From contig NC_087084.1 in the NCBI RefSeq assembly GCF_026151205.1, positions 1,712,312-1,776,311 of the forward strand: a stretch of 64,000 bases of DNA, written 5' to 3'. The notes under the pieces were generated by a model. It worked only from the letters and a program-made list of their open reading frames with translations. It did not search any database and was not told the origin of the DNA. Both the position numbers and the translations under genes were made by a program. Within the stretch, counting starts at the first letter, position 1; each line of letters opens with the position of its first letter. The DNA is from Bolinopsis microptera. Taxonomy: Eukaryota > Ctenophora > Tentaculata > Lobata > Bolinopsidae. Positions 518-48,100 of the stretch are shown one piece after another.

Positions 518-3500
518 CTTTTTTGTTAGTGATGAGAGCGTTGGGAACGTTTCTCTGTCTGCACATGATAGGGGCACATTGTGGCTCGCTGTTGCTCCAC
601 ACTGTGGCTGTTCCGTTCCATTTGCACGTGCGCTCGCACGTACTCGTGCATGGGAAACTGCAGCTGTTACATTGCACGTGCAGTGTGTCTCCGCACTCCA
701 GGATTTCTCCTGATAGATATTAATATTTTTGGGTCATTTTATAAAACATCTATATTTGTGGGTACCGTAAAATTCATTAAGCTACATATTATTGTATTTG
801 TTAAATATTCAGCCTGTATAGTGTATATTTCCGGTTGCATTTAATAGGAATATATTGTTCCTAATGTTCCTAATGTTCCTAATGTTCCTAATGTTCCTAA
901 TGTTCCTAATGTTCCTAATGTTCCTAATGTTCCTAATGTTCCTAATGTTCCTAATGTTCCTAATGTTCCTGCTGTTGCGCCTACCTTGAGAAACCTCAGC
1001 ACCATTAAACAGATAGTTCCCATCCTCGTACGATGTAACAGCAGGACACTTCCTCTTCACACATGTTGGTAGCTCACCAGACCAGCTACCGTCTGGCTGG
1101 CAGGTTCTTGTAGCGTTACCTTCAATCTGGTGGAGTCTATGTTATTACCATGGTTACTGTGTTACTGTGGTTACCAGTAACTGTGTTACTGGCAGGTTCT
1201 TGTAGCGTTACCTTCAATCTGGTGGAGTCTGTGTTATTACCATGGTTACTGAGGTTACCAGTAACTGTGTTGCTGGACACCGGTTGGGAGGTGAGCGATG
1301 TCACGTATCGATATATATTATATATATAGCTCCTCGAAGTTAAAAATATAATAAACTAATAAAGAACAGTACCTCATAACAAGGACTGTCACAATAGTAG
1401 TTTATTTGGTAGGAGCAGTAGTGAGCTCCACCAGATCTGATGGATAAGTGAGCATCTCCGCTAGCTTCTACTTCCACTGCTGGGTCCGCACACTGTTTCA
1501 CTGTATAGGAGTTAGGATTATAATTAGCACACTATATGGTAGTACAATTAGCACACTGTATGGTAGTACAATTAACACACTGTATATTAGTATAATTAGC
1601 TTCTTCCATCGTTAAATATTGAATATTTTGTAATCAGGAGACTTAAAAGAGAGTACAAAGGAGAGTATAAGATGAGGAGAACTTTTTTTCTTTTCTTTTT
1701 TAAAGCCCCTCGTAAGGGGGTTGTCTCTAATGGACTAATTTATTGATTACAATCATAATAAGTAAAAAATAAAGACCCCAATGGGCACTCCTGAAGACAT
1801 AACTACTAGAAAATATATCAAAACTAAATAGAAAAAACTGAGGACAAATGTGATAAAATCGCATCAAACTGCAAATAATGGAAGATACATTTAGGATTCG
1901 TTATTTAATGGCACGCAGCAGATAATAAAAAACTAACGTCTGCACTCAGGTAGGGTCCCATCTCCCCACTTGTTGTTGCAGCACCCCACCTCCGGGGTCC
2001 CCGCTAGTTCATAGCACTCGTGACAGTGATAACTCGCTCGTCCGGAGCAGCAGGATTTGTCATCGAAATCCTGGTTAACATATGGTCATTACAACGTTAA
2101 CAGAGGGTCATTACAATAATTATTCCGATTGCAATGTTTACAATTACCATGATTTGATGTGTCAATGATCAGAGTTGAAGTTTATTTGGGATGTATATAC
2201 GGAAATTGTACATGAACCGCTTCAAGTGCTTGTAGGTGCAGAAAACCTGACAGTGGAAACTAATACCTGTCACGTGACCTGACAGTGAAAACTAATACCT
2301 GTCACGTGACCTGACAGTGGAAACTAAGCTGTCACGTGACCTGACAGTGGAAACTAATACCTGTCGCGTGACCTGACAGTGGAAACTAAAACCTGTCACG
2401 TGACCTGACAGTGGAAACTAAAACCTGTCACGTGACCTGACAGTGGAAACTAAGCTGTCACGTGACCTGACAGTGGAAACTAATACCTGTCACGTGACCT
2501 GACAGTGGAAACTAATACCTGTCACGTGACCTGACAGTGGAAACTAATACCTGTCACGTGACCTGACAGTGGAAACTAAGCTGTCACGTGACCTGACAGT
2601 GGAAACTAATACCTGTCACGTGACCTGACAGTGGAAACTAAGCTGTCACGTGACCTGACAGTGGAAACTAATACCTGTCACGTGACCTGACAGTGGAAAC
2701 TAAGCTGTCACGTGACCTGACAGTGGAAACTAATACCTGTCACGTGACCTGACAGTGGAAACTAATACCTGTCACGTGACCTGACAGTGGAAACTAAGCT
2801 GTCACGTGACCTGACAGTGGAAACTAATACCTGTCACGTGACCTGACAGTGGAAACTAAGCTGTCACGTGACCTGACAGTGGAAACTAATACCTGTCACG
2901 TGACCTGACAGTGGAAACTAAGCTGTCACGTGACCTGACAGTGGAAACCAAAACCTGTCACGTGACCTGACAGTGGAAACTAAAACCTGTCACGTGACCT
3001 GACAGTGGAAACTAAAACCTGTCACGTGACCTGAACTCACCACCCAAGAGAGGGGACTAGCATTGATCTGCTTGTCAACGTTGGGAACTCTCGGATCTGC
3101 ACACTCGGTAACTGAAAGAGCAATACTTATTTAACCATCACACCAGATCTGATTAAATCAATATATTTATAATATTAATCAGAGTAGTGATCGGTATTCT
3201 AGAGTAACTAATAATGACCGATAAAGGAGCAAATGAATAATGAATATCCTACGTTTGCAAGACGGAGGACTGCTACTCCACCCAGCAGTTTTGTCACCGT
3301 TAGAGACACACTGTATGTCTGAGCCCCCAGTCATCTCGTAGCAGTTACAGTTACACTCTGTTTTCGTGCACTCGTACCCCACCTGTAGTGATGTGGTTTG
3401 GTTTGTTTTTTGTTTTTCTGTTTTTTTATTATTTGTTTTTTTTTTTTTTTTTGTTTTTTAAAACTTCTCATTTTTATTATGGTATGGTTTGCTGACTTCC

Positions 3501-14857: not shown

Positions 14858-17800
14858 TCAGTCGCACACGGAGTACTCCCTATCCTCCCACACTGTTACA
14901 GACCACACAGTCTCCGGTGTACAAGTACCCAGGATACACGAGGCTGGTTTCTTTATCTGCCGCTTTACTGGGATCTTCCGGACTTCCTTCCGGCAGTCTG
15001 GAGGGGAGGGGTCACGTGTTAGTTTAGTAAGAGTAAGCAACTTAGTTTCTATCTTCAGTTTAATCAGAGTAGATGTAACACTGTGACACTGTTGTTACCA
15101 TAGCTACACTACTAGTTACCATAGCTACACTACTAGTTACCATAGTTACACTACTAGTTACCATAGTTACACTACTAGTGTAGATATAACAAGCTTCTTA
15201 TCACTGTCTCTACTTCTCTACTATCTCTTCAACAAGAGATATTTGGCAGAATCTACAATGAAGTTTTTTTTTTCTACAGTGAAGTTTGACATTGAGGTTT
15301 ATAATTTTAGGGAAAGATTATAATTGGGTTGTGTTTAATTATCCCTGGTTTATAACTTGTATTTGATAATATCTGGCCACTAGGCTGTATTTGATAATAT
15401 CTGGCCACTAGGCTGTATTTGATAATATCTGGCCACTAGGCTGGTTTACTCACCACATCTCTCAGGTAGGTCACCTGACCAGAGTCCGTCTTCTTGACAC
15501 TTTGTGATCCACCCTCCTTTCAGATTAGGACACTTCACCTGACAGTGGAATAGGGGGTTGGCTGGGGAACCACTTATATATAATTATACATAATTATACA
15601 TAATTAACCACTTATATATAACTGTTATCTTCATTTCCTACTCTCTAAATGCAGAGAACTCTACAGACTGTAATCTGTGTGCAGACTGTAATCACTACAG
15701 TACACGGATACGGGTACATTTCCCATTCCTAAGCAAACTAATAACAAGCAAACCTCTACAATATCCTGGAAACTGTGACCAGTGCTCGAGTGGATCCGGC
15801 CTCCCTCGGGTACTCTGAAGTTCTGCGTGCAGTTCAGTCCTGAAAACATCAACCTGGTTACCTATAATTCTCAGAGGACTGTTACTCAAAAGTGATAATA
15901 GCATTACGAAGTACTAAGTATTTATTGGCTGAAAGTACTGAACTAAATAAGTACCAAAGTACTGAACTAAATATTAAATAACTAATAAGATTTAAGTTTA
16001 TTTGACGGCTGAAAGTACTGAACTAAATAAGACACGTACGTTTACAAAGAGGCTCGTCTCCACTCCAGACCCCCGAAGCAAGACAGTGCCTAGTAGCTTC
16101 ACCCACCACCTCGTAACCAGGGTAACATACGTACTCTACAAATGATTCGTACGAGTTGGAGTCCGTAGAGACTATGTATCCGTTAGTGGGTTGATTTAAC
16201 CGGGGGCATTCGTCACCTGGAGTAATATAGTGTTAGTAAAGTGTTAGTAAAGTGTTAGTTAAGTGTTAGTAAAGTGTTAGTGAAGTGTTAGTAAAGTGTT
16301 AGTAAAGTGTTAGTAAAGTATTAGTAAAGTGTTAGTAAAGTGTTAGTAAAGTGTTAGTAAAGTGTTAGTAAAGTGTTAGTAAAGTGTTAGTAAAGTGTTA
16401 GTAAAGTGTTAATAAAGTGTTAGTAAAGTGTTAGAGTAATGGTGGTGATACTGATAGTGATAGTCCTTCTCTTTCAATTAGGCTGCGCATTTCAGATTAT
16501 TTTTTCTATATTGAGGTAACAAATGATCAAGTTGATTGAAATGCCAATATATAAGATTTACAATAAAAGTTTCAACTTACAGACACAGTAGGGAGGCGCA
16601 TAGTCCCACTCTCCCTTGTGAGTGCACGTGATGGTCTTGGCCCCCCTCATCTGATAGCCGTCCTGGCACTTGTAACTCACAGTGTCTTGGTACTCGAAAC
16701 TGTCGCCCTCTCTCATTCCCCAGTCAGGTACACCTGTTAATGTAACACTTCTTTATAGTTTATGACTTAATTAATTAATTAATACAGTTATTTAGATACC
16801 ACATTTTTCAATTAATTATGTTATTTCGAGCCCGCCGCAAGATTTACTAATTTAAGATTTATTCACTAATACTATTACTTATAATACCAAAAGCCGCGCT
16901 CGCACTTATAAACTAACCAGGATCCCCGCAGTTATAATACTAAAAGCCGCGCTCAAGCTTTACTTATCAACTAACCAGGATCCCCGCAGACTTGTTTACT
17001 ACAAGTTGGCTCCACACCCTGCCACTGTCCCTTAACACAGAGCAAGTAACTATCCCCACTTTGTTGGTACCCCTTGTTGCACGAGAACTCCAGGTAGTTA
17101 GACCTGAGGGAGGGTTATCTGTTATCTGATTTCAAACACAAGGATTTATTTTTACCAGAACTCCAAGTAGTTCGACCTGAGGAGTGAGGGAGGGATATCG
17201 GGAGCAGGACTATTGAGCGGTGGACTGTTGAGCGTAGGACTGTAGGTCGGTGAAGGTCGGAAGTAGGACTGTAGAGCGGTGTCAAATCGCCAGGGTAGGA
17301 CTCTAGAGCGGCCGCCCTTATAGATCTCACAACATGAGGACTTTAGAGCGGTACGATCCTAAAATGAGGACTGTAGAGCGGTGGACTGTTGAGCGGTGGA
17401 CTGTAGGCCGGTGAAGGTCGGAAGTAGGACTGTAGAGCGGCCCTCCCTTATAGATCCCATAACATGAGGACTCTAGAGCGGTACCCTCCTATAACATGAG
17501 GACTCTATAGCGGTTGAAAATTTGAAGATTGAACACTCAACGAAGCTAAGTTATACATTGTAACTCGTGATTGATTATGGTCATGACATTCTAGGATGAT
17601 AACTTTATTAAAGAGTCATGGAGTTAATGAACATTTTCATTTACTTATTATAAATATTTCATTACTAATATTATAGTGTAACTTAATTTAAGATTATTGG
17701 TCGGTCTCAACGTCTTCCAAATGATTGAAATATTCCCCTGCTACTCAAAAATGTAAAACGTGTTTTCGGTATTTACCTACAATATGAGCGCTTAGCTCCA

Positions 17801-23800: not shown

Positions 23801-26800
23801 CAATACTCATAGATAAAAATTATTCAAACAATATATACATAATTGTATAATATATTCCCTGTCTCAAAAATTTGGAGAAACATTTGAAAATCACCCTTGG
23901 CCTTGTGGCTCCAAATTCAAATCTAAACTATTGACAAAGTTCTTTCTCGCACCTGATAATATAGTAGTCTCCGTTTTTAATGTCCAGCTCATAAGCCGAA
24001 CAAGGGTTAGGTTGGCAGGTGGGTGGAGAGCCGGACCACTTTCCATTCTCCTGACAAGTAAGACTAGTGGGTCCGGTGAGAGTGTAGCCGGAGTAACACT
24101 GGAACGTTCTCGTGCTGCCGCAGTAGCCTGAGTAGCTGTTGTCGCTGTAGTTACCGTTACTGAGGAGAGAGACAGTTAGCTGCAGTAGTAGTGACGTCAT
24201 CAGGAGTAGTGACGTCACCAGGAGTAGTGACGTCACCAGGAGTAGTGACGTCACCAGGAGTAGTGACGTCACCAGGAGTAGTGACGTCACCAGGAGTAGT
24301 GACGTCACCAGGAGTAGTGACGTCACCAGGAGTAGTGACGTCACCAGGAGTAGTGACGTCATCAGGAGTAGTGACGTCACCAGGAGTAGTGACGTCACCA
24401 GGAGTAGTGACGTCACCAGGAGTAGTGACGTCATCAGGTTAGCTGCAAGGCGAACAACTTGTTTGATTTTGGCATCATGATTATAAAACATCTAATATGA
24501 AATATAGAACAAACATGTGACATGCACGGTGCACCTGAACTTGATGATATCACACTTAATGAGCTTGCAGTAAGGTAGCTCCTCTGACCATGTCCCATCT
24601 GCTTGGCAGGTGTGGTCCGAGGATCCTGGACTAACTCCGTTATATGGAGTATGCATCTCGTAGCAACTGAGGGAGTTACAGTGGTTTTATTAAGAATATT
24701 ATATTGTTGACTTTTTGAAAATAGTTACCCTCGCACAAGATTATTTTCAATTTTCTTGTTGTGTTCCACAACTCTGTGTTAAAAGTATCACCAGGATTAC
24801 TTCAGGAATACTTCATGAATAACTCACCTATCACACTTGACTCTCACCCGATCCCCATAACACTGAGTATCATCCAGCTCTTCTACCTGCGAGGATTTAA
24901 AATTACAAGCTTATCACAAAACAGTATATCCACCACGTGACACAAACCAACCAATCAGATCACAGTATTAGTACCACGTGACACAAACCAACCAATCAGA
25001 CCACAGTATTCACACCACGTGGCACAAACCAACCAATCAGAGCACAGTATTAGTACCACGTGACACAAACCAACCAATCAGAGCACAGTATTTACACCAC
25101 GTGACACAAACCAACCAATCAGAGCACAGTATTCACACCACGTGACACAAACTAACCAATCAGAGCACAGTATTAAGACCACGTGACACAAATCAACCAA
25201 TCAGAACACAGTATTCACCCCACTTAACACAAACTAACCAATCAGAGCACAGTATTTACCCCACTTGACACAAACTAACCAATCAGAGCACAGTATTCAC
25301 ACCACGTGACACAAACCAACCAATCAGACCACAGTATTTACACCACGTGACACAAACCAACCAATCAGAGCACAGTATTTACACCACGTAACACAAACCA
25401 ACCAATCAGAGCACAGTATTCACACCACGTGACACAAACCAACCAATCAGAGCACAGTATTCACACCACGTGACACAAGGAACTAACACAGGGTTACCCA
25501 CCTGTCCATTGAGGAGGAGTTGTCTCCGAGGGCAGCACTTCTTCTGGCACTGTGGTACTTCACTATTCCACTGAGAATTGCTTTGACAGAACAGGGACTT
25601 CACTCTCCCTCTTACCTGGTAACCTTCGTCACATTGAACTTCCTGAGAGCAAGTAGTTACAACGCTGGATCTAACTATGTATAATCTAAGAACAATTCTA
25701 CGCTCCATCAAATCGATTCCTCTAAAAGTCAAATCATCGAGATATATAAATGTTCAAAATTAAATGAAATTAAAATGAAAAGTCAAAACCTCAGCTACAT
25801 ATCAAAATATAAACCCTACCAAATGTTGACTGCAGTCAAATTCAGAAAGTGTGTAGCAAGTTCGTTCCAATCTGGGTCCGTAGCAAACTTTGTTACGGAT
25901 TGGAATGAGTTTACTGTTGGGGCCTGCTGTTACTTTAGGACATTGTATCCTGTTACACGTGGGAAGCTCTGTTGGTTCCCACAAGCCAGACGGGTTCCGC
26001 TTGTCGCTGAAAAGTTTGTTTTACTGTGCTCTGATTGGTTAGTTTGTGTCACGTGGTGTGAATACTGTGCTCTGATTGGTTAGTTTGTGTGTTTGCGGAT
26101 GGGTTCCGCTTGTCGCTGAAAATTTTAACTGTTTCATGATTTGTGGTGTAGGTTAAGTGTTTTAGTGAGTGAGTTTTTTTAAGCAATGAGCATATTTTCA
26201 ATCAAAACCACGATTTAAAAACTACCGAAAGAAGCCACTATTCCCCTAAAAAAGCGAGTATTCCCCAAACTACTAACTTATCAGTGCAGGTAAAAGTAAG
26301 CTCCTCCTTTGCCTGGTGACAATAATCACAGTCGTAAGTAACACTGCTCATATACACATACTCCTCCTCCTCCTCTAATACAGGGGAGTACTTGCCGTTC
26401 TGGACTTCTCGGGGGGTGTTGCAGGTCTTTACCTGTAAAAGGAGGGAGTGAGGGAGTGAGGGAGTGAGGGAGTGAGGGAGTGAGGGAGTGAGGGAGTGAG
26501 GGAGTGAGGGGAGTGAGGGAGTGAGGGGAGTGAGGGAGTGAGGGGAGTGAGGGAGTGAAGGAGTGAGGGAGTGAAGGAGTGAGGGAGTGAGGGAGTGAAG
26601 GAGTGAGGGAGTGAGGGAGTGAGGGAGTGAGGGAGTGAGGGAGTGAAGGAGTGAGGGAGTGAAGGAGTGAGGGAGTGAAGGAGTGAGGGAGTGAGGGAGT
26701 GAGGGAGTGAGGGAGTGAGGGAGTGAAGGAGTGAGGGAGTGAAGGAGTGAGGGAGTGAAGGAGTGAGGGAGTGAAGGAGTGAGGGAGTGAGGGAGTGAGG

Positions 26801-29800
26801 GAGTGAGGGAGTGAGGGAGTGAGGGAGTGAGGGAGTGAGGGAGTGAGGAAGTGAGGGAGTGAGGGAGTGAGGGAGTGAGGGAGTGAGGGAGTGAGGGAGT
26901 GAGGGAGTGAGGGAGTGAGGGAGTGAGGGAGTGAGGGAGTGAGGGAGTGAGGGAGTGAGGGAGTGAGGGAGTGAGGGAGTGAGGGAGTGAGGGAGTGAGG
27001 GAGTGAGGGAGTGAGGGAGTGAGGGAGTGAGGGAGTGAGGGAGTGAGGGAGTGAGGGAGTGAGGGAGTGAGGGAGTGAGGGAGTGAGGGAGTGAGGGAGT
27101 GAGGGAGTGAGGGAGTGAGGGAGTGAGGGAGTGAGGGAGTGAGGGAGTGAGGGAGTGAGGGAGTGAGGGAGTGAGGGAGTGAGGGAGTGAGGGAGTGAGG
27201 GAGTGAGGGAGTGAGGGAGTGAGGGAGTGAGGGAGTGAGGGAGTGAGGGAGTGAGGGAGTGAGGGACTGAGGGAGTGAGGGAGTGAGGGAGTGAGGGAGT
27301 GAGGGAGTGAGGGAGTGAGGGAGTGAGGGAGTGAGGGAGTGAGGGAGTGAGGGAGTGAGGGAGTGAGGGAGTGAGGGAGTGAGGGAGTGAGGGAGTGAGG
27401 GAGTGAGGGAGTGAGGGAGTGAGGGAGTGAGGGAGTGAGGGAGTGAGGGAGTGAGGGAGTGAGGGAGTGAGGGAGTGAGGGAGTGAGGGAGTGAGGGAGT
27501 GAGGGAGTGAGGGAGTGAGGGAGTGAGGGAGTGAGGGAGTGAGGGAGTGAGGGAGTGAGGGAGTGAGGGAGTGAGGGAGTGAGGGAGTGAGGGAGTGAGG
27601 GAGTGAGGGAGTGAGGGAGTGAGGGAGTGAGGGAGTGAGGGAGTGAGGGAGTGAGGGAGTGAGGGAGTGAGGGAGTGAGGGAGTGAGGGAGTGAGGGAGT
27701 GAGGGAGTGAGGGAGTGAGGGAGTGAGGGAGTGAGGGAGTGAGGGAGTGAGGGAGTGAGGGAGTGAGGGAGTGAGTGAGGGAGTGAGGGAGTGAGGGAGT
27801 GAGGGAGTGAGGGAGTGAGGGAGTGAGGGAGTGAGGGAGTGAGGGAGTGAGGGAGTGAGGGAGTGGGGGAGTGGGGGAGTGAGGGAGTGAGGGAGTGAGG
27901 GAGTGAGTATTTACACCACGTGACCCCTCACCTGACACTGGAAGTCCTCTCCGTCCCAGGTCTGATCGGTACCACAGCCCCTCACACTGTCCCCACTTGA
28001 GTGGAAGTAACCTGCGTAAGTTATTATTAAATAAGATTTAGTTGCTGACACAGCTTCGATTCAGCTGACGTGCGATATGAAATCAATATGAAACCCCGAA
28101 ATAAACGAGTTATACACTACTGCCACTTATACCCTTGCTATTTTTTATCTTACCTTCGTTACAAGTATATTCAATGTGGTCACCACAGTGAAACTCAGTG
28201 GAGTTAATGTCTGCATTTCCTGGAATCTCTGGTTTCCCACAGTACTTTCTCTGACAGACAGGCTCACTCCCGTTCCAGTTACCATGCTCCTCACAGGCTA
28301 GGATGTGGTACCTGGGGTACACAGAGCTGGTCTTCAAGATGGCAGGATCAGTCATAGAGTTAGGGAACTTGTAGCAGGAGTTACAGGAGAAGGTGACTAC
28401 AGTCCCGTAGTGGTGGTCTGGGGTGGAGAGGTACCCCTCATCTGGTGCTTGCAGCTGAGTGCAGTTCCGGATCCTACAGACTGCTTCCGAGCCAGACCAC
28501 TCTTTGGTGTTGCTGCATGTTCTGGTGAGGTCACCAGTTACCAGCTCGTAGCCGGTGTTACACTCAAACTGTGTAGCTTGGTTACACCCCGTGTTGCTGA
28601 TTACCACGTGGGCGTGTTCTGGCAGTTCCAGAGGTTCACATACCTTGGGGAGACAGGTGGGGAACTTGCCTTGCCAGGACCCCTTGGTGCAGTCAGTGGG
28701 GTGGGTTCCCTTGCACTCCACCTCAGCACAGTTGCAGTCTCCAGGATCCTCCATCTCGTAGCACTCATCACACTCGTATCTGATAAGCCGGCCACACTGG
28801 TAATCACTCCCATCTGTCACGAACGAGGCGTGGTCGAATTCTTGCGGAGGTTCACACTTCTTAACATTGACTACAGGTTCCTGAGTCTTCCACTCCCACT
28901 CCCTAGCCATGTTGCAGCGGACAGCAGTGTCCCTAGAGTCACCCTCTCTACACTTATCAGTGTAGAAACACTCCTCGCACTCCAACTGGCGAGTGCTACC
29001 ACAGGTGATGTGTTCCCCGGGAAAGGAGCACTGAGTGTCCACAAAGGGGAGCTCACTGCACTCTTTTAGAGAACAGGTTGGGATGTTAGCAGACCACTGT
29101 TTGTTGGGGAGACAGGTGTGGGTCAGCTCCCCATCCAGTGCTTCGTAACATTCCTTACACTCCAGCTCCACCTCCTTCCCGCACAGCACAGCAGACTCCA
29201 TTGAGGTGTCTGTGTATCTAATGTGTTGAGAGGGGTCAGGGGTTCTAGCTGGACAGGACTTCCTGGAGCACACCTCGTCCTGGTTAGTCCAGGTCCCTGG
29301 GTGCTGACACTCTCTTCGTGGTGCTGTCTCGTAGTGCTCCTCTCCACTGGGGAAAATAGGGAGTTAAACAAGTGAACACTTCAACAGGGTGATAAATATA
29401 ATATCATAGTATTGAAACGTTAATCATAGGGTCCAAGTTCAGAATCGAAATCTGTCCAGTATCCATTATCCAACTGCAAAGTTTTGTCAACTAATATATA
29501 ACTAACTACTACTACTATGTCAGAACTAAGTGTAAGCAAAAGTGTGATATTCCATCAAGATGAGTTACCTGTTATACTCATAGCACTCCTGGCACGCAAC
29601 ATCCACCCTCTGACACACGTGATCCCCTCCGCAAACTTCCCGCTGTTCCTCGTCCCCTACACTTGTGTAATTGTAAGTCATGATCACCACATCGTAGGTG
29701 GGGTCCCCACTTCTTATCTCCGATATAGCGGGGCAGCACACCGGCACACACTCGGGCTGGTCCCCATCAAACTGCCATTCCTCGTCCACTGTACACCTGG

Positions 29801-32800
29801 CTGAGGCTGCTCCACTCAACTTGAAACAGGAGGGGCAGGAGAACTGGATAGTGGAGCCGCAGGAGAAGGAGGGACCGTGGGAGACTAGAGGGTCGGATAG
29901 CATTGGGGGGAGGCACTCCAGGACTGAAATATTTATTGTTAGCCGCAGGAGAAGGAGGGACCGTGGGAGACTAGAGGGTCGGATAACAATGGGAGGAGGC
30001 ACTCCAGGACTGAAATATTTATTGTTGGCACACATTTGGGTTTAGATGTTGATTGCTACCACGTCAACTGTTTTTGTTTCTCTGGTTAATTTATATATTT
30101 GTATCATTTTAGACACCTGGATGTTTACAGGCTTACAGGGGTTTACAGGAATGTCTAGAGATCTCACAAGAACTGCCTATAATCTAAACTTACTGAAGCA
30201 AGTAGGAGGATCAGCAGGGAACCAAGATGTTTCGTTAGTCCCACTAACTGGCTTACAGGATCTCTCTGAACTTCCGTCCAACTCCCAGCATCTGGGAGTT
30301 TAGTAATCAATAACTACAGATTATTGGAATGAACTACCGTCCAACTCCCAGCATCTGAGAGTTTAGTTATCAATAACTACAGATTATTGGAATGAACTAC
30401 CGTCCAACTCCCAGCATCTGAGAGTTTAGTAATCAATAACTACAGGTTATTGGAATGAACTACCGTCCAACTCCCAGCATCTGGGAGTTTAGTAATCAAT
30501 AACTACAGGTTATTGGAATGAACTACCGTCCAACTCCCAGCATCTGAGAGTTTAGTAATCAATAACTACAGGTTATTGGAATGAACTACCGTCCAACTCC
30601 CAGCATCTGAGAGTTTAGTAATCAATAACTACTGGTTATTGGAATGAACTACCGTCCAACTCCCAGCATCTGAGAGTTTAGTAATCAATAACTACTGGTT
30701 ATTGGAATGAACTACCGTCCAACTCCCAGCATCTGAGAGTTTAGTAATCAATAACTACAGATTATTGGAATGAACTACCGTCCAACTCCCAGCATCTGAG
30801 AGTTTAGTAATCAATAACTACAGATTATTGGAATGAACTACCGTCCAACTCCCAGCATCTGGGAGTTTAGTAATCAATAACTACAGATTATTGGAATGAA
30901 CTACCGTCCAACTCCCAGCACCTGAGAGTTTAGTAATCAATAACTACAGGTTATTGGAATGAACTACCGTCCAACTCCCAGCATCTGAGAGTTTAGTAAT
31001 CAATAACTACAGATTATTGGAATGAACTACCGTCCAACTCCCAGCATCTGGGAGTTTAGTAATCAATAACTACAGGTTATTGGAATGAACTACCGTCCAA
31101 CTCCCAGCATCTGAGAGTTTAGTAATCAATAACTACAGATTATTGGAATGAACTACCGTCCAACTCCCAGCATCTGAGAGTTTAGTAATCAATAACTACA
31201 GGTTATTGGAATGAACTACCGTCCAACTCCCAGCATCTGAGAGTTTAGTAATCAATAACTACAGGTTATTGGAATGAACTACCGTCCAACTCCCAGCATC
31301 TGAGAGTTTAGTAATCAATAACTACAGATTATTGGAATGAACTACCGTCCAACTCCCAGCATCTGAGAGTTTAGTAATCAATAAGTACAGGTTATTGGAA
31401 TGAACTACCGTCCAACTCCCAGCATCTGGGAGTTTAGTAATCAATAACTACAGGTTATTGGAATGAACTACCGTCCAACTCCCAGCATCTGAGAGTTTAG
31501 TAATCAATAACTACAGAGTATTGGAATGAACTACCGTCCAACTCCCAGCATCTGAGAGTTTAGTAATCAATAACTACAGATTATCTGAACTACCGTCCAA
31601 CTCCCAGCATCTGAGAGTTTAGTAATCAATAACTACAGATTATTGGAATGAACTACCGTCCAACTCCCAGCATCTGAGAGTTTAGTAATCAATAACTACA
31701 GATTATTGGAATGAACTACCGTCCAACTCCCAGCATCTGAGAGTTTAGTAATCAATAACTACAGATTATTGGAATGAACTACCGTCCAACTCCCAGCATC
31801 TGAGAGTTTAGTAATCAATAACTACAGATTATTGGAATGAACTACCGTCCAACTCCCAGCATCTGAGAGTTTAGTAATCAATAACTACAGATTATTGGAA
31901 TGAACTACCGTCCAACTCCCAGCATCTGAGAGTTTAGTAATCAATAACTACAGATTATTGGAATGAACTACCGTCCAACTCCCAGCATCTGAGAGTTTAG
32001 TAATCAATAACTACAGGTTATTGGAATGAACTACCGTCCAACTCCCAGCATCTGAGAGTTTAGTAATCAATAACTACAGGTTATTGGAATGAACTACCGT
32101 CCAACTCCCAGCATCTGAGAGTTTAGTAATCAATAACTACAGGTTATTGGAATGAACTACCGTCCAACTCCCAGCATCTGGGAGTTTAGTAATCAATAAC
32201 TACAGGTTATTGGAATGAACTACCGTCCAACTCCCAGCATCTGAGAGTTTAGTAATCAATAACTACAGATTATTGGAATGAACTACCGTCCAACTCCCAG
32301 CATCTGAGAGTTTAGTAATCAATAACTACAGGTTATTGGAATGAACTACCGTCCAACTCCCAGCATCTGAGAGTTTAGTAATCAGTAACTACAGATTATT
32401 GGAATGAACTACCGTCCAACTCCCAGCATCTGAGAGTTTAGTAATCAATAACTACAGATTATTGGAATGAACTACCGTCCAACTCACAGCATCTGAGAGT
32501 TTAGTAATCAATAACTACAGGTTATTGGAATGAACTACCGTCCAACTCCCAGCATCTGAGAGTTTAGTAATCAATAACTACAGATTATTGGAATGAACTA
32601 CCGTCCAACTCCCAGCATCTGAGAGTTTAGTAATCAATAACTACAGATTATTGGAATGAACTACCGTCCAACTCCCAGCATCTGAGAGTTTAGTAATCAA
32701 TAACTACAGATTATTGGAATGAACTACCGTCCAACTCCCAGCATCTGAGAGTTTAGTAATCAATAACTACAGATTATTGGAATGAACTACCGTCCAACTC

Positions 32801-35800
32801 CCAGCATCTGAGAGTTTAGTAATCAATAACTACAGATTATTGGAATGAACTACCGTCCAACTCCCAGCATCTGAGAGTTTAGTAATCAATAACTACAGGT
32901 TATTGGAATGAACTACCGTCCAACTCCCAGCATCTGAGAGTTTAGTAATCAATAACTACAGGTTATTGGAATGAACTACCGTCCAACTCCCAGCATCTGA
33001 GAGTTTAGTAATCAATAACTACAGATTATTGGAATGAGCTACCGTCCAACTCCCAGCATCTGAGAGTTTAGTAATCAATAACTACAGGTTATTGGAATGA
33101 ACTACCGTCCAACTCCCAGCATCTGAGAGTTTAGTAATCAATAACTACAGATTATTGGAATGAACTACCGTCCAACTCCCAGCATCTGAGAGTTTAGTAA
33201 TCAATAACTACAGGTTATTGGAATGAACTACCGTCCAACTCCCAGCATCTGAGAGTTTAGTAATCAATAACTACAGGTTATTGGAATGAACTACCGTCCA
33301 ACTCCCAGCATCTGAGAGTTTAGTAATCAATAACTACAGATTATTGGAATGAACTACCGTCCAACTCCCAGCATCTGAGAGTTTAGTAATCAATAACTAC
33401 AGATTATTGGAATGAACCGTCCAACTCCCAGCATCTGGGAGTTTAGTAATCAATAACTACAGATTATTGGAATGAACCGTCCAACTCCCAGCATCTGAGA
33501 GTTTAGTAATCAATAACTACAGATTATTGGAATGAACTACCGTCCAACTCCCAGCATCTGAGAGTTTAGTAATCAATAACTACAGATTATTGGAATGAAC
33601 TACCGTCCAACTCCCAGCATCTGAGAGTTTAGTAATCAATAACTACAGATTATTGGAATGAACTACCGTCCAACTCCCAGCATCTGAGAGTTTAGTAATC
33701 AATAACTACAGATTATTGGAATGAACTACCGTCCAACTCCCAACATCTGAGAGTTTAGTAATCAATAACTACAGATTATTGGAATGAACTACCGTCCAAC
33801 TCCCAGCATCTGAGAGTTTAGTAATCAATAACTACAGATTATTGGAATGAACTACCGTCCAACTCCCAGCATCTGAGAGTTTAGTAATCAATAACTACAG
33901 GTTATTGGAATGAAAAGGTTACTTGTACTCCCAGCATCTGAGAGTTTAGTAATCAATAACTACAGATTATTGGAATGAACTACCGTCCAACTCCCAGCAT
34001 CTGAGAGTGTTGTAATAAATAACTACAGGTTATTGGAATGAACTACCGTCCATCTCCCAGCATCTGAGAGTTTAGTAATCAATAACTACAGATTATTGGA
34101 ATGAGCTACCGTCCAACTCCCAGCATCTGAGAGTTTAGTAATCAGTAACTACAGATTATTGGAATGAACTACCGTCCAACTCCCAGCATCTGAGAGTTTA
34201 GTAATCAATAACTACAGATTATTGGAATGAACTACCGTCCAACTCCCAGCATCTGAGAGTTTAGTTATCAATAACTACAGATTATTGGAATGAACTACCG
34301 TCCAACTCCCAGCATCTGAGAGTTTAGTAATCAATAACTACAGATTATTAGAATGAACTACCGTCCAACTCCCAGCATCTGAGAGTTTAGTAATCAATAA
34401 CTACAGATTATTGGAATGAACTACCGTCCAACTCCCAGCATCTGAGAGTTTAGTTATCAATAACTACAGATTATTAGAATGAACTACCGTCCAACTCCCA
34501 GCATCTGAGAGTTTAGTAATCAATAACTACAGATTATTGGAATGAACTACCGTCCAACTCCCAGCATCTGAGAGTTTAGTAATCAATAACTACAGATTAT
34601 TGGAATGAACTACCGTCCAACTCCCAGCATCTGAGAGTTTAGTAATCAATAACTACAGATTATTGGAATGAATTACCGTCCAACTCCCAGCATCTGGGGG
34701 TTTAGTAATCAATAACTACAGGTTATTGGAATGAATTACCGTCCAACTCCCAGCATCTGAGAGTTTAGTTATCAATAACTACAGGTTATTGGAATGAATT
34801 ACCGTCCAACTCCCAGCATCTGAGAGTTTAGTAATCAATAACTACAGATTATTGGAATGAACTACCGTCCAACTCCCAGCATCTGAGAGTTTAGTAATCA
34901 ATAACTACAGATTATTGGAATGAACTACCGTCCAACTCCCAGCATCTGAGAGTTTAGTAATCAATAACTACAGATTATTGGAATGAACTACCGTCCAACT
35001 CCCAGCATCTGAGAGTTTAGTAATCAATAACTACAGATTATTGGAATGAACTACCGTCCAACTCCCAGCATCTGAGAGTTTAGTAATCAATAACTACAGG
35101 TTATTGGAATGAACTACCGTCCAACTCCCAGCATCTGAGAGTTTAGTAATCAATAACTACAGATTATTGGAATGAATTACCGTCCAACTCCCAGCATCTG
35201 AGAGTTTAGTAATCAATAACTACAGGTTATTGGAATGAACTACCGTCCAACTCCCAGCATCTGAGAGTTTAGTAATCAATAACTACAGATTATTGGAATG
35301 AACTACCGTCCAACTCCCAGCATCTGAGAGTTTAGTAATCAATAACTACAGATTATTGGAATGAATTACCGTCCAACTCCCAGCATCTGAGAGTTTAGTA
35401 ATCAGTAACTACAGGTTATTGGAATGAATTACCGTCCAACTCCCAGCATCTGAGAGTTTAGTAATCAGTAACTACAGGTTATTGGAATGAACTACCGTCC
35501 AACTCCCAGCATCTGAGAGTTTAGTAATCAATAACTACAGATTATTGGAATGAATTACCGTCCAACTCCCAGCACCTGGGAGTTTAGTAAATTTTAATAT
35601 AGTCAAATTCCACTTATATTTGTTAATATTAGTATTATTATTATGGGGAGGGACGAGTTATTTTATTAATGTTTTTATGTTTTTATTATCTTGACAGTTG
35701 CTGTTGTAACTCAAGATTTGAAATTTGTATTCCTTGTATTCCTTGTATTCCTTGTATATCTTGTAGTAATCAATAACTACAGATTATTGGAATGAACGGG

Positions 35801-38800
35801 TTACTTGTAATATGTGGACAATTATACTGCTCAACAGCTTTATCACTTTATTGAAATGATGGAAACGCCAGATCTTACCACTTCTGAACAATATAACCTA
35901 CAGCAGGCTACGTGCCTGACCTACAGGCCCAACTTTTCACCCCCAAAATAACCCCTCAAAAGTACATCACCTCCAAAAGTTACAAAAACAACTACTTACT
36001 CGTCATCACAAGAATATTGTATCGGTTCCTTGCAGGAGTAGATCTCTCTTACTGGGTTCAGAACTAAATGGTCTGTTAGCTCCTCTGGTTTATTGCACAA
36101 CTTCACTGTTGTGGAGAATGTGGTTAGTAATCAGAAGTCTGTGGTTTAGATTCGGAACAAGTTGGAATGCTGAATTGGATATTTGTAAATGTTGTTATTC
36201 ATTAAGGTAAAATATTTATTGATTTGTGATCTGATTCTCACAGATGGGGCAATATTCGCGAGTAAGAAACTCAGAGAGCTACAATATTTCCTTTCATTTA
36301 CTTTGGTAGTAAATACAGTATATATTTATATATTTATTATATGATATATATTATACTTTATTAATATATAGTAAATATAGGCAGAGGTATTGCACAAGTT
36401 TACCAAAGAGCTATACATATATCCTAACAAAATATTTCCTTGTGTTTGACTTACGCTCGCATACAGGAGCAATAGTCCAGGTCTTATCTTCCTTGCACTG
36501 CACAGTCTTGTTACCCTTGAGGTTGTAGCATTGATCACACTCGTATTCGACCGGGTCGCCACACTTGTACGTCTTCACAGCCTGGGCCTGAAGGAAGGTG
36601 AGTTTGGTATTCTGTGTTTGTAACACGACATCTGTCCGACAGCACTATTTTCTTGTGTTTGATGTGATATCTCAAAATTGGCACATAGAAACTCGCTCAA
36701 ACTTACACAGATTATCCGTTCTATAACCACCATATTTAATGGAAAGTTTCAAGAAAATCGTACGGTAGGATCCGACATAAACTATTGTCCGAATAACCTA
36801 TTTTGGTATCCTGTGTTTGAATTGGTTGCTTACTTTATAACGGCACCATAATTTGATACCTTTGGTAACTTAATTTCTCTTATAACACTTCGACTTTTCT
36901 TCTGCTATAAAATCATACCTTTGTTGAACCATGCTAAGTTTTTAATGTAATTTGGAAGTTGACAAAATTAAAAAATTACTTTAAGATCAGAAAATATTAA
37001 ATATATGAGAATCACTTACCGCACTAAATTTAGACATAATCCCATCAATCTCCTCCACAATAAACGACAAATCCTCTCCATATCCTAGTCCAAAGTTCTC
37101 TGTAACATTAACCAGTTTGGGATAGCTGGGATGCTCGCACTGCTTGATGCCACACCCGGGCACCTCCCTCTCCCACCCCACCTCTCCTGCTGCATTCTCA
37201 GTGCAGTGGATATCAACTGCTTCCAGCTCAAAGCAAGGATCACATTTAACCGTGATATATTCACCACAGTTGTAGGAATCCTTATCAGGAGCTATCTCTG
37301 TGTTGCCAGGAACAGCTGGTTTCTGGCAGGTTTTGATAGAGCAGATTGGTTCAGGCTCACTCCAGCCCCCTCCATGCAGACACTCCGCACTGTTGGAGCC
37401 TGAGGTCCTCTGGTAGCACGTGTTGCAGGTGTACGTGACCTGGTCTCCACACAGATTGTAGTTGCTGTTAGATATCTGACCATTCTCTGGGTCCCCCCTC
37501 TTCTCACATTCGTACAGAGTACACTTGGGTACTGGTTTAGACCAGGACCTGGGGAGAATCAAGTTAGACTACAACCCGGGGAGTGGAGAAGCATCGTGTT
37601 GGACATTTTATGGGATAACGGGTCTTTACAAACAAGTGAAAACAAATTTTAGATACAGTATTATTCAGAACATTGCTGGTACTACACATGTTCGTCATTC
37701 CCCCTACATTCCCCCTACATATCCCCTACATTCCCCCTACATTCCCCCTACATTCCCCCTACATTCCCCCTACATTCCCCCTACATTTCCCCTACATTCC
37801 CCCTACATTCCCCCTACATTCCCCCTACATTCCCCCTACATTCCCCCTACATACCTATCATGGAGACACTGAGCGGACTCATCCCCCTCCAGATAATAAC
37901 ATTTGTCACACGCGTAGTTTACTACAGCACCACATTGTTGGGAGTCTACTGTCCCGGCTCCGTTTCTAGGTTGTCCTGGTGCTGGACACTCCTTTCCTGG
38001 GTGAGGTGCAGGTTAGAGTGATGATATCAAGTCTCCGTAGTGATTGAGCCTCTAGGATGAGGCCGGGCGGGGTTCCTTATACTCCTATAGCAGATGGTAG
38101 CAAAGAGACTTACACTAAAATGTTGTCAGTAAGACTCACAACTGATTCCTCATGAAACGAAGCTAGAAGATATTGTAAGATAAGAGATAACACGTGACTT
38201 ACTGACACACGCGGGCACCTCAGCTGACCAGGTCTTATCTGACTGACACCTCACCTCCTCCTCACCCTGCAGTTCGTGACACTCCTCACACGAGAACTTG
38301 ATGCTTGACCCACATGTTGTCTCCAGGGAGGTCATCATACCGTTTTCTGGCGCTTCTAGTGCTGGACACTGTTTTACTAGATAGAACCGATGTTAGAACT
38401 TATAGTGAATATGACTTATGATGACTTAGGATGACTTAGGATTAAAATGTAAAAGCAATTACCTCTTAGATATTAAGTTACAGTTGCTTGTTGGTTACAA
38501 GATTGCAGTTTGGTTGTGAGGATCACGGTACAATAGAATTACCAAAGAGTCAAGGGGACTATTTCTAGTATAGAAACCCTGTAAACTCAATTAAACACTA
38601 ACTTTTGCAGGAGTAAGATTGTCCGTCCCACTTAGCCTTACTCTGCCAGGGGTTGTAGTCATCAGGTTTATTTGGCTGGCATCTGTGGGTTTCACTTCCT
38701 GATATGGTTCATTGTTTCACTAAAACAACTATAAGTCTGGTATGTAAAAAAAGTAAATGATTAACATTCCTTCTATTCACTTTTACAATTGGTCCATTAA

Positions 38801-41800
38801 GTGTTTCACTAAAACAGCCATAAGTCTGGTATGTAAAAACGATGTGAAAGTAATTTGACCTTGTAATTAACATTCCTTGACCCTTGTATTCACTTTTACA
38901 ATCTGAGCCAAATTAAACCAAAGCAACTCCTAACCTGCATCGTATTCATAACAGTCGTCCTTGCACTGGAAAGTAACGGAATCTCCACAATCATACACTG
39001 ATTTAGACGGCTTGTAAATGGCATTAGATTGGGTATCATCATTCTCCGGCTTCCGGCAACTCCTTATTTGGCAGAGAGGTCTCTCTTGTCCCCAAGTTCC
39101 GTCGGGTAAGCAAGTTCTTTTGTCTGGTCCACAAAGATAGTAGCAATCCTCACAAACCTGACGTTACGGTTTTATATAAATTGAAATTTGACGCTATTTA
39201 TCACAACCGAGAAGAGGAAATAATACATGGTTGAAACATTTTGGATATATGCACTTTCGTTAAGACTTTGTCACTATATCGAATTTTGATAAAATGCTTC
39301 AATTACATATACTTCAATTACATTATTATTCGCCCAATTTAACAGATTTGTCTAGTACTTACATCTTGATCTAGTGGTGTTAATTCAAATGATTAAGATA
39401 TAGAAGGATAATTTAAAATCAATTTTATAATAATAACAAAAAATGATTTATATTATTATTATTATAATAAAAATAATTTAAGATAAAATTATTAAGTTAA
39501 ATCAAGCTTACAACGTCAACTTGAGACCCACACTCAGTAGGACTGTTAGATCCTGTGTCAGTTATCCAAATCTTCTTGTACTCGTCCTCCGCGCTACTCA
39601 GCTTGTCTGAAATGTGCATACTTTCATTTTGAATTTCAGTTTCACTTCTCTTTCACTTTCACATTCACTTTCACTTTCACTTTCGTTTTAATTTTAATTC
39701 AACTCCCAGTTTTATAAACTCACACTGATAGAATCCTTGTCCAGCAATATGGTTTGTTGTGAGCTCGGGGCAAGTTCGAACTGAAGGAAAAACCTATGTT
39801 AAAGAACATTCTTGAAAAGTGGTCTTAACAGGTTAAACGTATATTATTAAATGTAAAATTATTAAAATTATTAAATTTAAAATTGCAAGATTACAAAACA
39901 AGACTCACTAATAACAAAACTCGTTGTTACCAACAAGACTTACTGTTACAAGAAGGACGCTCGGAGTCCCAGTCAATAGAATTGTCATCATCCACCCTAC
40001 ACGTACTAGAAGGAGACCCCTCTAGATCATAACACTCGTCTCCTGCAGGATCGTTCTCTCTAAAAGGAGGGGATACGTTTAGTGGGGGGTTAGGGGGCTG
40101 GGGGGTTACAGTTAGGTGGGGGGATACGTTTAGTGGGGGGTTACAGTTAGTGGGGGGGTTACAGTTAGTGGGGGGGGGTTACAGTCAGTGGGGGGTTACA
40201 GTTAGTGGGGGGGGGGGGTTACAGTTAGTGGGGGGTTACAGTTAGTGGGGGGGGGTTACGTTTAGTGGGGGGGGGGGTTACAGTTAGGGGGTGGGGGATA
40301 CGTTTAGTGGGGGTTACAGTTAGGGGGTGGGGGGTTCGAAGTACAGTTAGGGGGGTTCGAAGTACAGTTAGTGGGGGGGGGGGAGTTCGAAGTACAGTTA
40401 GGGGGTTCAACGTTTAGTTAGTGGGGGGAGGGTTCGAAGTACAGTTAGGGGGGTGGGGGGTTCGAAGTACAGTTAGGGGGTTCAACGTTTAGTTAGTGGG
40501 GGGGGAGTTCGAAGTACAGTTAGTGGGGGAGGGGTTACAGTTGGGGGGGTGGGGGGTTCGAAGTACAGTTAGGGGGGTCCAACGTTTAGTTAGTGGGGGG
40601 AGTTCGAAGTACAGTTATTGGGGAGAGGTTCGAAGTATAAATTAAATTAAAGATTTTGTTGAATAAACCATAGAGATAAACATTAGAGCATTGTAATTTT
40701 GTTCACTGATACTTTATTGTATCATTGCAACTTACCGTGTTTTGCACTGATACTCTATGGTATCATTGCAAGCAGTTCGCACATTCTTTATCTCTAGTGG
40801 ATACTCCAGGGTAGGGCTCTTAGGGGTGATCACAGTATCTGAGTCTACATCTAGGAGAGTCAGTCCAGCGAGCATCCTCCTCACAGGTCACATGTGACCC
40901 ATCCTCAGGGTACATGTCGTAGCAGATATCACACTCGAACTCCACTGAGTCACCACACTCTAGTCCCTGCAGGGTGTATTGTTTCATCAGATATAATCTT
41001 TATAGTAATAGTCTTACTACCATTATTCGATTCAGTAAGATCCAGCCAATCATTTTATACCAGATCTTATCGGTTTTAAGTTCTTGCTATCATTTTCGAG
41101 AACAAATCTTCCACTTAAACCACTTTTGTTACCTGAATGTAGTTCAAAAAAGGAGCATGACATGACTTACATGTGGGACAGGGGACCTGATCCAAGAAAG
41201 TGGGTATTTTTTATTCTTATCGTCATCTATATCGGGCAGTGTCGGCTCCGGACAAGTTATTACTGAAAAGTATATGTTTATCAGACATTTGATACTATGC
41301 AGTGACTCAGTGAGCATTTTGGTGATTGTCAAAAGCTATAACTTGCTACAAAAAGATTCGTTTTGTCTTACTTTTGCAGGCGTCCACCCCCTCAGTCCAC
41401 CCTGCATCGTTCACTTTGTCTCCGTTACCTGGTCTACACTGGATCACCTGAATTACCATTATGTAATAGTGGGAACCTGGTAAGCAGTTTAGAGTAAAAA
41501 GTGAAAGTGAAAGGTACTTTCTCTCTCGTCACACGAAAGTTATTTTTATTATTTCTGTTTTCGATGGCAGAGCATTAAGTCAACAATCACATTCTAGTTC
41601 CAACCACAAAATCCACCAGATCACAGCCAAATCATTGCCAGTACAGGAACTGACCTGAGGTTCCGGGTTGATCTCGTGGCAGGTGGTGCAGGTGACTGTG
41701 ACCTTTTCCCCACAGTTACTATGGTTACTACACTGGTTACTATGGTTACTACACAGACGAGGAACTCACCTGAGGTTCCGGGTTGATCTCGTGGCAGGTA

Positions 41801-45100: not shown

Positions 45101-48100
45101 CCTGGTCAGACTATGGTTACTACACTGGTTACTATTGTTACTACACTAGTTACTAAGGTTGTACTATTGTAGCACCGTTAACTAACATTGACTTCTGCAC
45201 TTCTAGGTTCACCCTGGTCAGACAGTATGTTGTTAATGATAATTAACAATGAAAAAGCCTCCCTACGTTGAAAAAGCCAGAACTCCCAATTGAAACGTCA
45301 CCGTTCTCAGGAGATGAACTATCTACAGCTCTCAAGCAGACAAAGGACACGTACGGTCATGACGGAATTCCTTCTCTGCTGTACAAGTGTGTTGACTTGG
45401 ACACTACTTTACTATCTCTGTTCAACAACATGCTAGCTACTGGTAAAGCCCCGGAAGAGCTTCTTGTCACTGCCATTCTTCCTATACCCAAAGGAGCTAA
45501 AAAGTTCTGTCCTGAAAATAGCAGAGGCATCTCCATCCTCCCTGTTGCCACGAAAATCTACAACAGGCTGCTTCTAAACCGAATCAGGAGCCACATAGAA
45601 CCTCGCCTCCGATACAACCAGAATGGTTTCCGGCCTGGAAGAGGGACTCGTGAACAGATTCTGGCTCTTAGACGTATCATCGAAGAGGTTGTGAACTTCC
45701 AGCTTCCTTGTGTCATCTCCTTTATTGACTTCTCAAAGGCCTTTGACTGCATCTTCAGATCGCATCTTCCCGACATCCTGGCTTCTTACGGCTTTCCTAA
45801 AAAAATCATAAAAGCCATTATGTCACTCTACATCAACACCAAGGCTAAAATCATGACCCCTGAAGGTATAACCTTAGAATTCCTTACCAACCTCGGAATT
45901 CTCCAGGGCGATGTTCTTGCACCTCTCATTTTTATCATCGTCCTGGATTTCATACTAAGACTAGCAATAGGGCCACGTGATGGGTTTAAAGTTGGAAGTA
46001 ACTACATTGCTGATTTGGACTTCGCCGATGACCTAGCAACAATTACTGACAGCTTCAGCGAAAATGGCCGCCTTTGCCAAAGCATTTCTGACATAGCAGC
46101 CCGTTATGGTCTCCTTATTAACATCGGAAAGACCAAATACATGTCCTATAACATCCCGCGACCTGTCAACTCAGACGATAGAGTCTTTATTAACGGCAAC
46201 CCTTTAGAAGAAGTTCGTGACTTTAAGTACCTAGGATCCTTTATAGCCTCAACAAGCAGAGACATCAATGTCAGGAAAGGCCTCGCATGGAAAGCTTTAC
46301 AGAGTCTAGATGCTTTTTGGAAATCTAATATGTCCAGGAAGATCAAGACTAAGATTTTTCGAACTGCAGTAGAACCTGTTCTGCTGTATGGTGCAGAAAC
46401 CTGGACTCTTAAAAAGGCTGATATCAGAGCACTAGACGGTGTTTATACTAGAATGCTACGAAGGGTCTTTGGTATCTCATGGAAATCACATACACCTAAC
46501 TCCGTTCTTTACGGAAAGATTCCATCGGTGACAGATACTATAAAGACACGAAGACTTCGTTTTGCAGGACATGTCTACCGTCTACAGGACCAACCTGCTC
46601 AACAACTCCTTTTCTGGCAACCATCCTATGGCCAGCGTTATCGAGGACGACCACATAAGACCTTCCCGGACGTCCTACTTGAAGACACTGGAATGGAACC
46701 TGACCAGCTGCGTTTACTCATGTGTGATAGGGATAAATGGAGAGAAGCGTTGACACGAAACTCGTTCCAGATTTCATCTGGATCGATCTAGGCAGGACGT
46801 TGAGCAGGTGCATATTTCAAAATTTTGACGTTAAAAGTTTGACGTTAAAAAATGTTGACGTTAAAATTAAATAAATATTAAAACTAAGTACTTGCTGTTT
46901 TGCCTAAGACTCTCAGCTATAACTCCAGCAGCCAGGGCAGCAGCACACAGTGAACCACTGCATGAGGATTTAGCTGTGGTGTCTGTGAAACCTGTGGGGT
47001 TAGTTTGTGTCACGTGGTGTGGGTACTCAGGTCTGATTGGTTAGTTTGTGCCACGTGGTGCGAATACTGTGTTTTGATTGGTTTGTTCTACGAGAATGAA
47101 ATCCTTTTTTTCTTCAGATGAAATGTCTAAATAAAAACCTGCAGCTGGAATATCAGCTCCGGGGGCGAATAGGTCCACACACTCCCCAATGTTAGAGACT
47201 GTAGCGTCGTTTTCATCTGTAGCTCCCACTGTAACTACCCCATTTAGTGCTGTTCCTCCCTGGGCACAAAACTTACGTAAATGAAAGTACACTGGTTACT
47301 ATGGTTACTACACTGGTTACTATAATGGTTACTATAAAGTGTACCTGAGCGGAGGCGGGGTTGGAACTGGTTACTATGGTTACTACACTGGTTACTATGG
47401 TTACTATATAGTGTACCTGAGCGGAGGCGGGGGTGGAACTGGTTACTATGGTTACTACACTGGTTACTATGGTTACTATATAGTGTACCTGAGCGGAGGT
47501 GGGGTGGAACTGGTTACTATGGTTACTACACTGGTTACTATGGTTACTATATAGTGTACCTGAGCGGAGGCGGGGGTGGAACTGGTTACTATGGTTACTA
47601 CATTGGTTACTATGGTTACTATATAGTGTACCTGAGCGGAGGCGGGGGTGGAACTAGTTACTATGGTTACTACACTGGTTACTATGGTTACTATAAAGTG
47701 TACCTGAGCGGATGTGGGGGTGGAACTGGTTACTATGGTTACTACACTGGTTACTATGGTTACTATATAGTGTACCTGAGCGGAGGCGGGGGTGGAATGA
47801 CAAGAGTCCAGATCCTCATCGTCACCAGCTCCAGCGACCACTAACACTCCAGAGTTAGAGCCGTAGTTCAGCTCAGTCAGGCTCACTGGGAGGGAGGAGG
47901 GTAAATACTTATATATAATTATAGAGGATAACATTTTAAGCATAACTGGTGGAGTAGTAGCGCATTTGATGAATTAATTAGATTAGGATTTTAGGTTTAA
48001 TTTAATTAAGTAAATTAAGTAAATTAGGTTCTCACCTATCTTAGAGTTGATGTCTTTATGAACCCGGTGAATGGTAAAGCCAGCTAGCACCACAGAACGC

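Follow-up and report, generated by a model that had tools for sequence, protein, structure and literature searches.

The stretch of DNA analyzed here, which we call the window, comprises 64,000 nucleotides (nt) of the ctenophore Bolinopsis microptera (C13:1712312-1776311), and positions given without a contig name are counted from its first letter. On the minus strand lie successive exons that encode Sushi domains (PF00084), and the intron between the exons numbered 32 and 33 contains a long minisatellite whose repeat unit includes the 3' splice site, or acceptor, of exon 33. Among the five reading frames scanned for domains, Sushi matches were found on two (E-values of 2e-22 and 1e-11), one weak VWD match fell below its curated cut-off, and two frames gave no domain match. 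We infer that the exons between about 42 kb and 1 kb belong to one gene.

The boundary on which the array is built can be located through the protein domain. A hidden Markov model (HMM) of the Sushi domain was built from ten domains of the window, with the domain of exons 32 and 33 left out. Against this model exon 32 alone scores 12.0 bits (positions 1-30) and exon 33 alone 15.8 bits (positions 32-56), whereas the two joined score 29.4 bits over positions 1-56. The splice is read as CDDE/CWEL because of this difference, with the intron splitting a codon and the join completing a single Sushi domain. The joined domain thus gives independent support for a start of exon 33 at 30291, and it agrees with a preliminary description of the locus in which the end copy of the array had been named as the true acceptor. 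From this acceptor, exon 33 runs to a GTAAGT donor. The open frame persists through exons 32-34 (the exon 34 donor follows 29569), and a 417-amino-acid frame with four Sushi matches lies farther downstream.

In the 64-kb window, Tandem Repeats Finder (TRF) reports the array with a period of 63, 84.6 copies, and 97% matches. Parsing of the minus strand into units yields 85 acceptor copies, of which 84 are inner copies and one is joined to exon 33. The array and its period are therefore as the preliminary description had them, and its figure of about 84 acceptors becomes 85. Successive copies are 63 bp apart in 80 of 84 steps, the remaining steps being 60, 60, 65, and 59, and there is no two-unit gap. 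Each unit joins 38 nt of intron end to 25 nt of exon start. The acceptor AG is kept in all 85 units (CTCTCAG in 76, CTCCCAG in eight, and CCCCCAG in one), CTAA is kept in 84, and 79 copies match the first 18 nt of exon 33 exactly. At the next position the exon has A and the unit T, after which both continue with AGTTCA. That the unit spans a splice acceptor with CTCTCAG and the first 18 nt of the exon, and that one intron consequently presents dozens of near-identical 3' splice sites, had both been proposed, and both hold on this parsing.

The possibility that the array, or its length, is an artefact of assembly seems to us very slight. The copies comprise 29 distinct unit sequences with scattered variants, and adjacent units are slightly more similar than in shuffled orders (0.9743 vs 0.9703; 5 of 2000 shuffles were as high), as local turnover would give. 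Moreover, the array is flanked by the two halves of one Sushi domain, and smaller duplications of a like kind recur (Table 1). A query of two units was searched against the 264.65-Mb genome (232 contigs). Apart from the array itself it matched a single 34-nt sequence, a relative of the unit's intronic part, in a search that may under-report repeats.

Table 1. Features of the window that bear on the acceptor array and on related repeats
Feature	Position in window	Strand	Basis
Exon 32, first part of Sushi domain; donor GA/GTAAGT after 36000	36000..36105	-	HMM, frame
Exon 33, 98 nt, true acceptor at 30291, second part of Sushi domain	30194..30291	-	HMM, boundaries and frame
63-bp minisatellite, 85 acceptor copies	30267..35590	-	TRF and unit parsing
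Most upstream unit and unique intron flank, presumed pre-array intron end; first exon-like base 35575	35525..35625	-	Acceptor weight matrix
Single relative, upstream of the array, of the unit's intronic part (putative source sequence)	35764..35797	-	34/34 nt identical
Odd unit (33936), second junction type GGGAG/TACAAGTAACC, reaching further into the source sequence	33860..33950	-	Unit parsing
2 x 86 bp duplication across exon 34 acceptor, true start 29923	29855..30026	-	TRF, matrix, automatic scan
Acceptor and exon start in two copies, true 17103, decoy 17176	17103..17176	-	Read by eye; not flagged by automatic rule
Acceptor-spanning duplication, period 92, 98%; true exon start 1126, decoy 1218	1097..1251	-	Automatic scan and reading
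Duplication of exon end and donor, period 115; first donor after 41770	41653..41799	-	Automatic scan

The inner copies would be poor substitutes for the true acceptor. When exon 32 is joined in silico to each of them, an in-frame stop follows in 84 of 84 cases, 5-17 codons on and typically as CWELDGSSFQ-stop, in keeping with the earlier statement that the units lead into a stop. Local sequence, however, is unable to separate the true site from these decoys, since the decoy at 30857 matches the true acceptor without a difference along 80 nt, comprising 62 nt of intron and 18 nt of exon. Accurate splicing would consequently have to depend either on position or on the body of exon 33, which is followed after 98 nt by a GTAAGT donor.

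We consider it probable that the array is a tolerated mirage minisatellite, as repeats across exon-intron boundaries have been called in amphioxus, and that the Sushi gene is spliced to its last copy at some cost in efficiency. In productive mRNA, exon 32 would be joined to the last copy. The 3' splice sites of the copies are weak and nearly alike, yet the last alone leads into a complete 98-nt exon with a GTAAGT donor, each decoy having a 25-nt exon stub. Splicing to a decoy would run into a stop and probably yield a degraded mRNA, so that the array would be tolerated rather than used.

Published work on two systems favors this reading. When a 3' splice site was duplicated in beta-globin pre-mRNAs, only the distal one was used, and very inefficiently (PMC5389562). 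In amphioxus, regular splicing was undisturbed by mirages, as reverse transcription PCR suggested, even though many units hold AG or GT signals (PMC3087553). Of the two outcomes envisaged in the preliminary description, the first was that the exon-adjacent copy alone functions, through downstream exon signals. The preference for that copy is favored by both reports, and exon signals would be a plausible reason for it. The second was regulated or aberrant splicing, and our analysis found no evidence for regulated splicing.

Several observations weigh against splicing to the last copy. Acceptors and donors were scored with small weight matrices built from 17 acceptors and 13 donors of the gene, which were hand-picked from domain patterns and may in some cases be off by a few bases. 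On this scale the true acceptor scores -2.5, below all 17 sister acceptors (leave-one-out scores of -1.6 to 13.0), and it ranks 81st of 85 within the array. The best-scoring acceptor of the array is the most upstream copy (5.6), which lies 425 nt from the donor, compared with 5709 nt for the true copy. A rule of either proximity or strength would thus choose the wrong copy. Exon length alone cannot exclude the nearest decoys either, because the three copies closest to the true one would define exons of 161-287 nt. The globin constructs differed in the length of exon attached to the proximal copy (14, 55, or 205 nt), yet all three were spliced at the distal site, which supports the rule that the distal site wins but not the length of the stub as its cause (PMC5389562). 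Finally, with equal competition among 85 sites the last would be chosen once in 85 times, and by simple arithmetic a bias of about 84-fold would be needed for half of the transcripts to be productive.

Some of the same facts could be taken to mean that exon 33 is mostly skipped or mis-spliced and that the gene, nonessential or dying, tolerates the array as a lesion. The true acceptor is the weakest of the 18 scored, and 84 decoys stand against one true site. We nevertheless judge such decay to be improbable, since the frame is open through exons 32-34, since the Sushi frame described above lies downstream, and since skipping of the 98-nt exon 33 would itself break the frame.

Another reading gives the array a function as an attenuator. 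Its 84 decoys would bind U2AF and the U2 small nuclear ribonucleoprotein (snRNP) and delay splicing, and copy number would set the amount of productive mRNA, as a rheostat of variable length. This has several attractions. In pre-mRNAs with two alternative 3' splice sites, both can be bound at once; such concurrent occupancy is described as inhibitory, and routes of this kind as possibly disadvantageous or non-productive (PMC5389562). Splice signals are intact in nearly all copies of the array, and several neighboring arrays change copy number rapidly between paralogues. In opposition, the copies are weak sites by the acceptor matrix: the median score in the array is -2.2, a value that 31% of 701 other AGs reach or exceed. 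There is also no sign of selection on the acceptor signals. About two losses of AG would be expected and none was seen, which by arithmetic gives a P of about 0.13 (at a variant rate of 1.2%, with the three most variable columns set aside) and is not significant, even though a 14-nt stretch, TACTAAACTCTCAG, varies less (1.14 per column) than the upstream intron part of the unit (2.46) and slightly less than its exon-derived part (1.44). On balance we regard attenuation as unlikely.

An elaborated form of the attenuator can also be imagined. Here the decoys would titrate U2AF and U2 on the nascent transcript, the length of the array would set the output of the Sushi gene and would differ among individuals and perhaps cells, and some decoys might catch a spliced leader. 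Spliced-leader trans-splicing is common in the ctenophore phylum, with a report for Hormiphora (PMC8527503). Taken with all of its parts, this proposal strikes us as quite unlikely.

It is also conceivable that inner units serve as micro-exons of 17 nt (AG/ATGCTGGGAGTTGGACG/GTAGTT or GTAATT), with alternative or recursive splicing proceeding through the array. The potential donor ACG/GTAATT, present in seven units, scores 6.2, which is inside the range of the 13 donors of the gene (4.2-10.9). There is also a precedent in potato, where a cryptic GTAAG became active after an intron-exon structure had been duplicated, and a new intron arose (PMC4974935). However, the commoner form ACG/GTAGTT (71 units) scores 3.8, just under all 13 donors, and an insertion of 17 nt breaks the frame. 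Micro-exons of about 17 nt, moreover, usually need special enhancers. We believe there is very little chance that the units are used in this way.

Returning to the acceptor signals of the array, one element of the preliminary description requires revision. TACTAA had been proposed as a branch-like motif, but it lies just 8 nt before the exon and is probably the wrong site. Among the 17 sister introns, seven carry [CT]TAAC at 15-18 nt before the exon, and five have no branch-like match within 60 nt. A TTGAT at 15 nt is, on these distances, the likelier branch site in the array.

The acceptor also coincides with a potential hairpin. A perfect 9-bp inverted repeat with a 3-nt loop, AACUCCCAG-AUG-CUGGGAGUU, is centered on it at 30273-30300. 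Its predicted stability is -12.5 kcal/mol (-9.5 for the common decoy form), and over positions -9 to +12 it is the strongest of the 18 acceptors, the other 17 ranging from -6.3 to 0.0. Folds of 61 nt are less striking (z of -2.65 and -1.42). We considered the hairpin as a means of choosing the true site and rejected it, because pairing of the AG is alike in the true site (about 0.97) and in the 84 decoys (mean 0.97, range 0.15-1.00) and so cannot account for site choice. In the same wider window, seven of the 17 other acceptors exceed 0.9. As a speculation, the hairpin may have helped the unit to expand.

The sequence surrounding the array permits a reconstruction of how the unit could have arisen. 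The segment upstream of the array listed in Table 1 shares TTCATTCC...GATTACTA with the unit and would be the source of its intronic part. At the exon-end junction of the unit is GTTCA, which exon 33 (GAAGTTCAGAG) and the source (CCCGTTCATTCC) have in common. At the intron-end junction is TTACTA, which the source shares with the flank of the most upstream unit. A tandem duplication could have joined the start of the exon, at GTTCA, to the upstream intron segment carrying GTTCA. The 63-bp length would then have resulted from a deletion between two copies of TTACTA, and the high copy number from slippage or unequal exchange. A duplication with 5 nt of microhomology and a deletion with 6 nt would together explain the unit, although the order of these events is our inference. 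The junction GGGAG/TACAAGTAACC of the odd unit at 33936 suggests a second event. The most upstream unit appears to keep the old intron flank, in which case the better-scoring context of the old acceptor now belongs to a decoy 5.3 kb away.

The focal array is not the only repeat in what appears to be this gene to cross an exon boundary. The acceptors at 1126, 17103, and 29923 are each spanned by a two-copy duplication on the same strand as the focal array, and the one near 17.1 kb has three copies in a segmental paralogue. Counting the focal array there are four acceptor cases, and in each the upstream copies run into a stop, so that only the most downstream acceptor keeps the frame. Besides the donor duplication listed in Table 1, donor-spanning repeats occur at other Sushi loci. 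Locus L007 has two copies of 65 bp, compared with one in the part of its paralogue L011 that was read, and locus L015 has two copies of 79 bp as well as about four of 91 bp, for which the donor is a probable reading. The last of these (L015:1683-2031) is a family nested in another, with a minisatellite of the GTTACCATAGTAAC type absorbed into the 91-bp unit.

In total, the Sushi loci provide four acceptor and four donor cases, and the sister repeats have units of 65-115 bp. An automatic scan of 68 Sushi-coding segments, recent paralogues included, flagged seven rows that correspond to six events, the focal array among them. The two remaining cases, at 17.1 kb and in the 91-bp array of L015, were missed by the rule and were read by eye. 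As a control, 0 of 20 fn3 and glutamate-receptor matches had a boundary-spanning duplication; this comparison is weak, the loci partly overlapping and the receptor matches lying in long uninterrupted frames, and we claim no difference from it. Of the glutamate receptors in this genome, L029 matches the PDB entry ML032222a iGluR (4yki; ML names belong to Mnemiopsis leidyi) at an E-value of 9e-121 and 407 bits, with 243 bits for the next different protein; another receptor, L026, had no such match among the 60 listed of 246 hits.

Turnover of arrays in the region can be gauged from a recent segmental copy of the gene, in which the window from 4234 to about 24850 corresponds to C13:1526822-1541640, the lower end being the end of the compared stretch. 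Some intron arrays differ between the window and this copy, including those with units of 28 bp (3.1 vs 21.1 copies), 18 bp (14.2 vs 5.2), 11 bp (18.7 vs 10.7), and 31 bp (26.1 vs 42.0). Others hardly differ, such as those of 17 bp (12.8 vs 12.1), 21 bp (4.1 vs 3.6), and 10 bp (3.3 in both). The segmental copy was also considered as a control for the focal array and was set aside, as it ends near 24850, before exon 33. The focal array lies outside the duplicated segment and is therefore without a paralogous partner.

Repeats are plentiful in the surroundings. TRF rows cover 40% of the window (25,672 of 64,000 bases), with many arrays between Sushi exons. Three arrays of the window are without a TRF row in the segmental copy, namely those of 20 bp at 10197, 45 bp at 10833, and 488 bp at 6641.

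The closest known counterparts of the array are the mirages of amphioxus, in Adh3 and the globin genes BflGb6 and BflGb9. In BflGb6 the 3' end of an intron and the 5' part of an exon are repeated, with three and six units of 150-160 bp in two haplotypes; BflGb9 has a 157-bp duplicate and Adh3 has units of 10-72 bp (PMC3087553). Mirage length differs between haplotypes and even somatically (PMC3087553). Like the ctenophore array, mirages are minisatellite-like tandem duplications across exon-intron boundaries, and both types of boundary are affected; many of their units, but not all, keep AG or GT signals, and their length is unstable. The structural features of a mirage are found here as well: the unit crosses a real exon-intron boundary, as the Sushi domain supports, its 63 bp is a minisatellite length, and across the Sushi loci both the 5' and the 3' boundaries of exons are involved. 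The ctenophore array departs from the amphioxus descriptions in its 85 units of 63 bp and in that at least five boundaries of apparently one gene are affected. Mirages in amphioxus also come with RNA evidence, whereas the array is known from DNA. With these qualifications, the array belongs to a type of repeat known from amphioxus and stands out by its extreme copy number.

Three other systems offer partial likenesses. The minisatellite of the human IFI6 (6-16) gene supplies several splice donors (PMC4526556, PMC3618361) and resembles the array in offering multiple copies of one splice site at an exon boundary. In IFI6, however, the copies are donors, and further repeats are reported to be used and to give different isoforms, whereas the array consists of acceptors whose decoys lead to stops. 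Coding logic argues against use of the IFI6 type, since all 84 inner acceptors would lead to a stop. The beta-globin constructs likewise have an intron with identical 3' splice sites, of which the upstream one is followed by a truncated exon, but they are artificial, have two copies, and were studied in cell extract (PMC5389562). Intron gain by tandem duplication likewise starts from a duplicated intron end and exon start; there a new intron and exon were made, whereas no new exon is indicated in the array. A literature search with most subscription papers outside its reach found no report of such repeats in ctenophores, or of any with more than a handful of acceptor units, which is a weak statement.

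The array constitutes a natural experiment on how the spliceosome chooses one 3' splice site among many whose immediate surroundings are the same in sequence. The recurrence of boundary-spanning minisatellites in apparently one ctenophore gene suggests that mirages are not peculiar to amphioxus, and their spread and cost become testable in ctenophores.

Two further arrays in the window adjoin splice sites. An 8-bp array at 26442-27907 (TCACTCCC on the sense strand, about 183 copies) lies directly before the acceptor at 26432, where 1.4 kb of pyrimidine-rich repeat stands in place of a polypyrimidine tract. An 11-bp array at 37696-37852 (GTAGGGGGAAT on the sense strand, about 14 copies) starts at the donor of an exon ending near 37860, and every unit repeats a GTAGGG. 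On the plus strand, opposite to the Sushi exons, a 512-amino-acid open frame extends from 45253 to 46788, which, on inspection by eye and with its FADD motif, resembles a non-LTR (long terminal repeat) reverse transcriptase.

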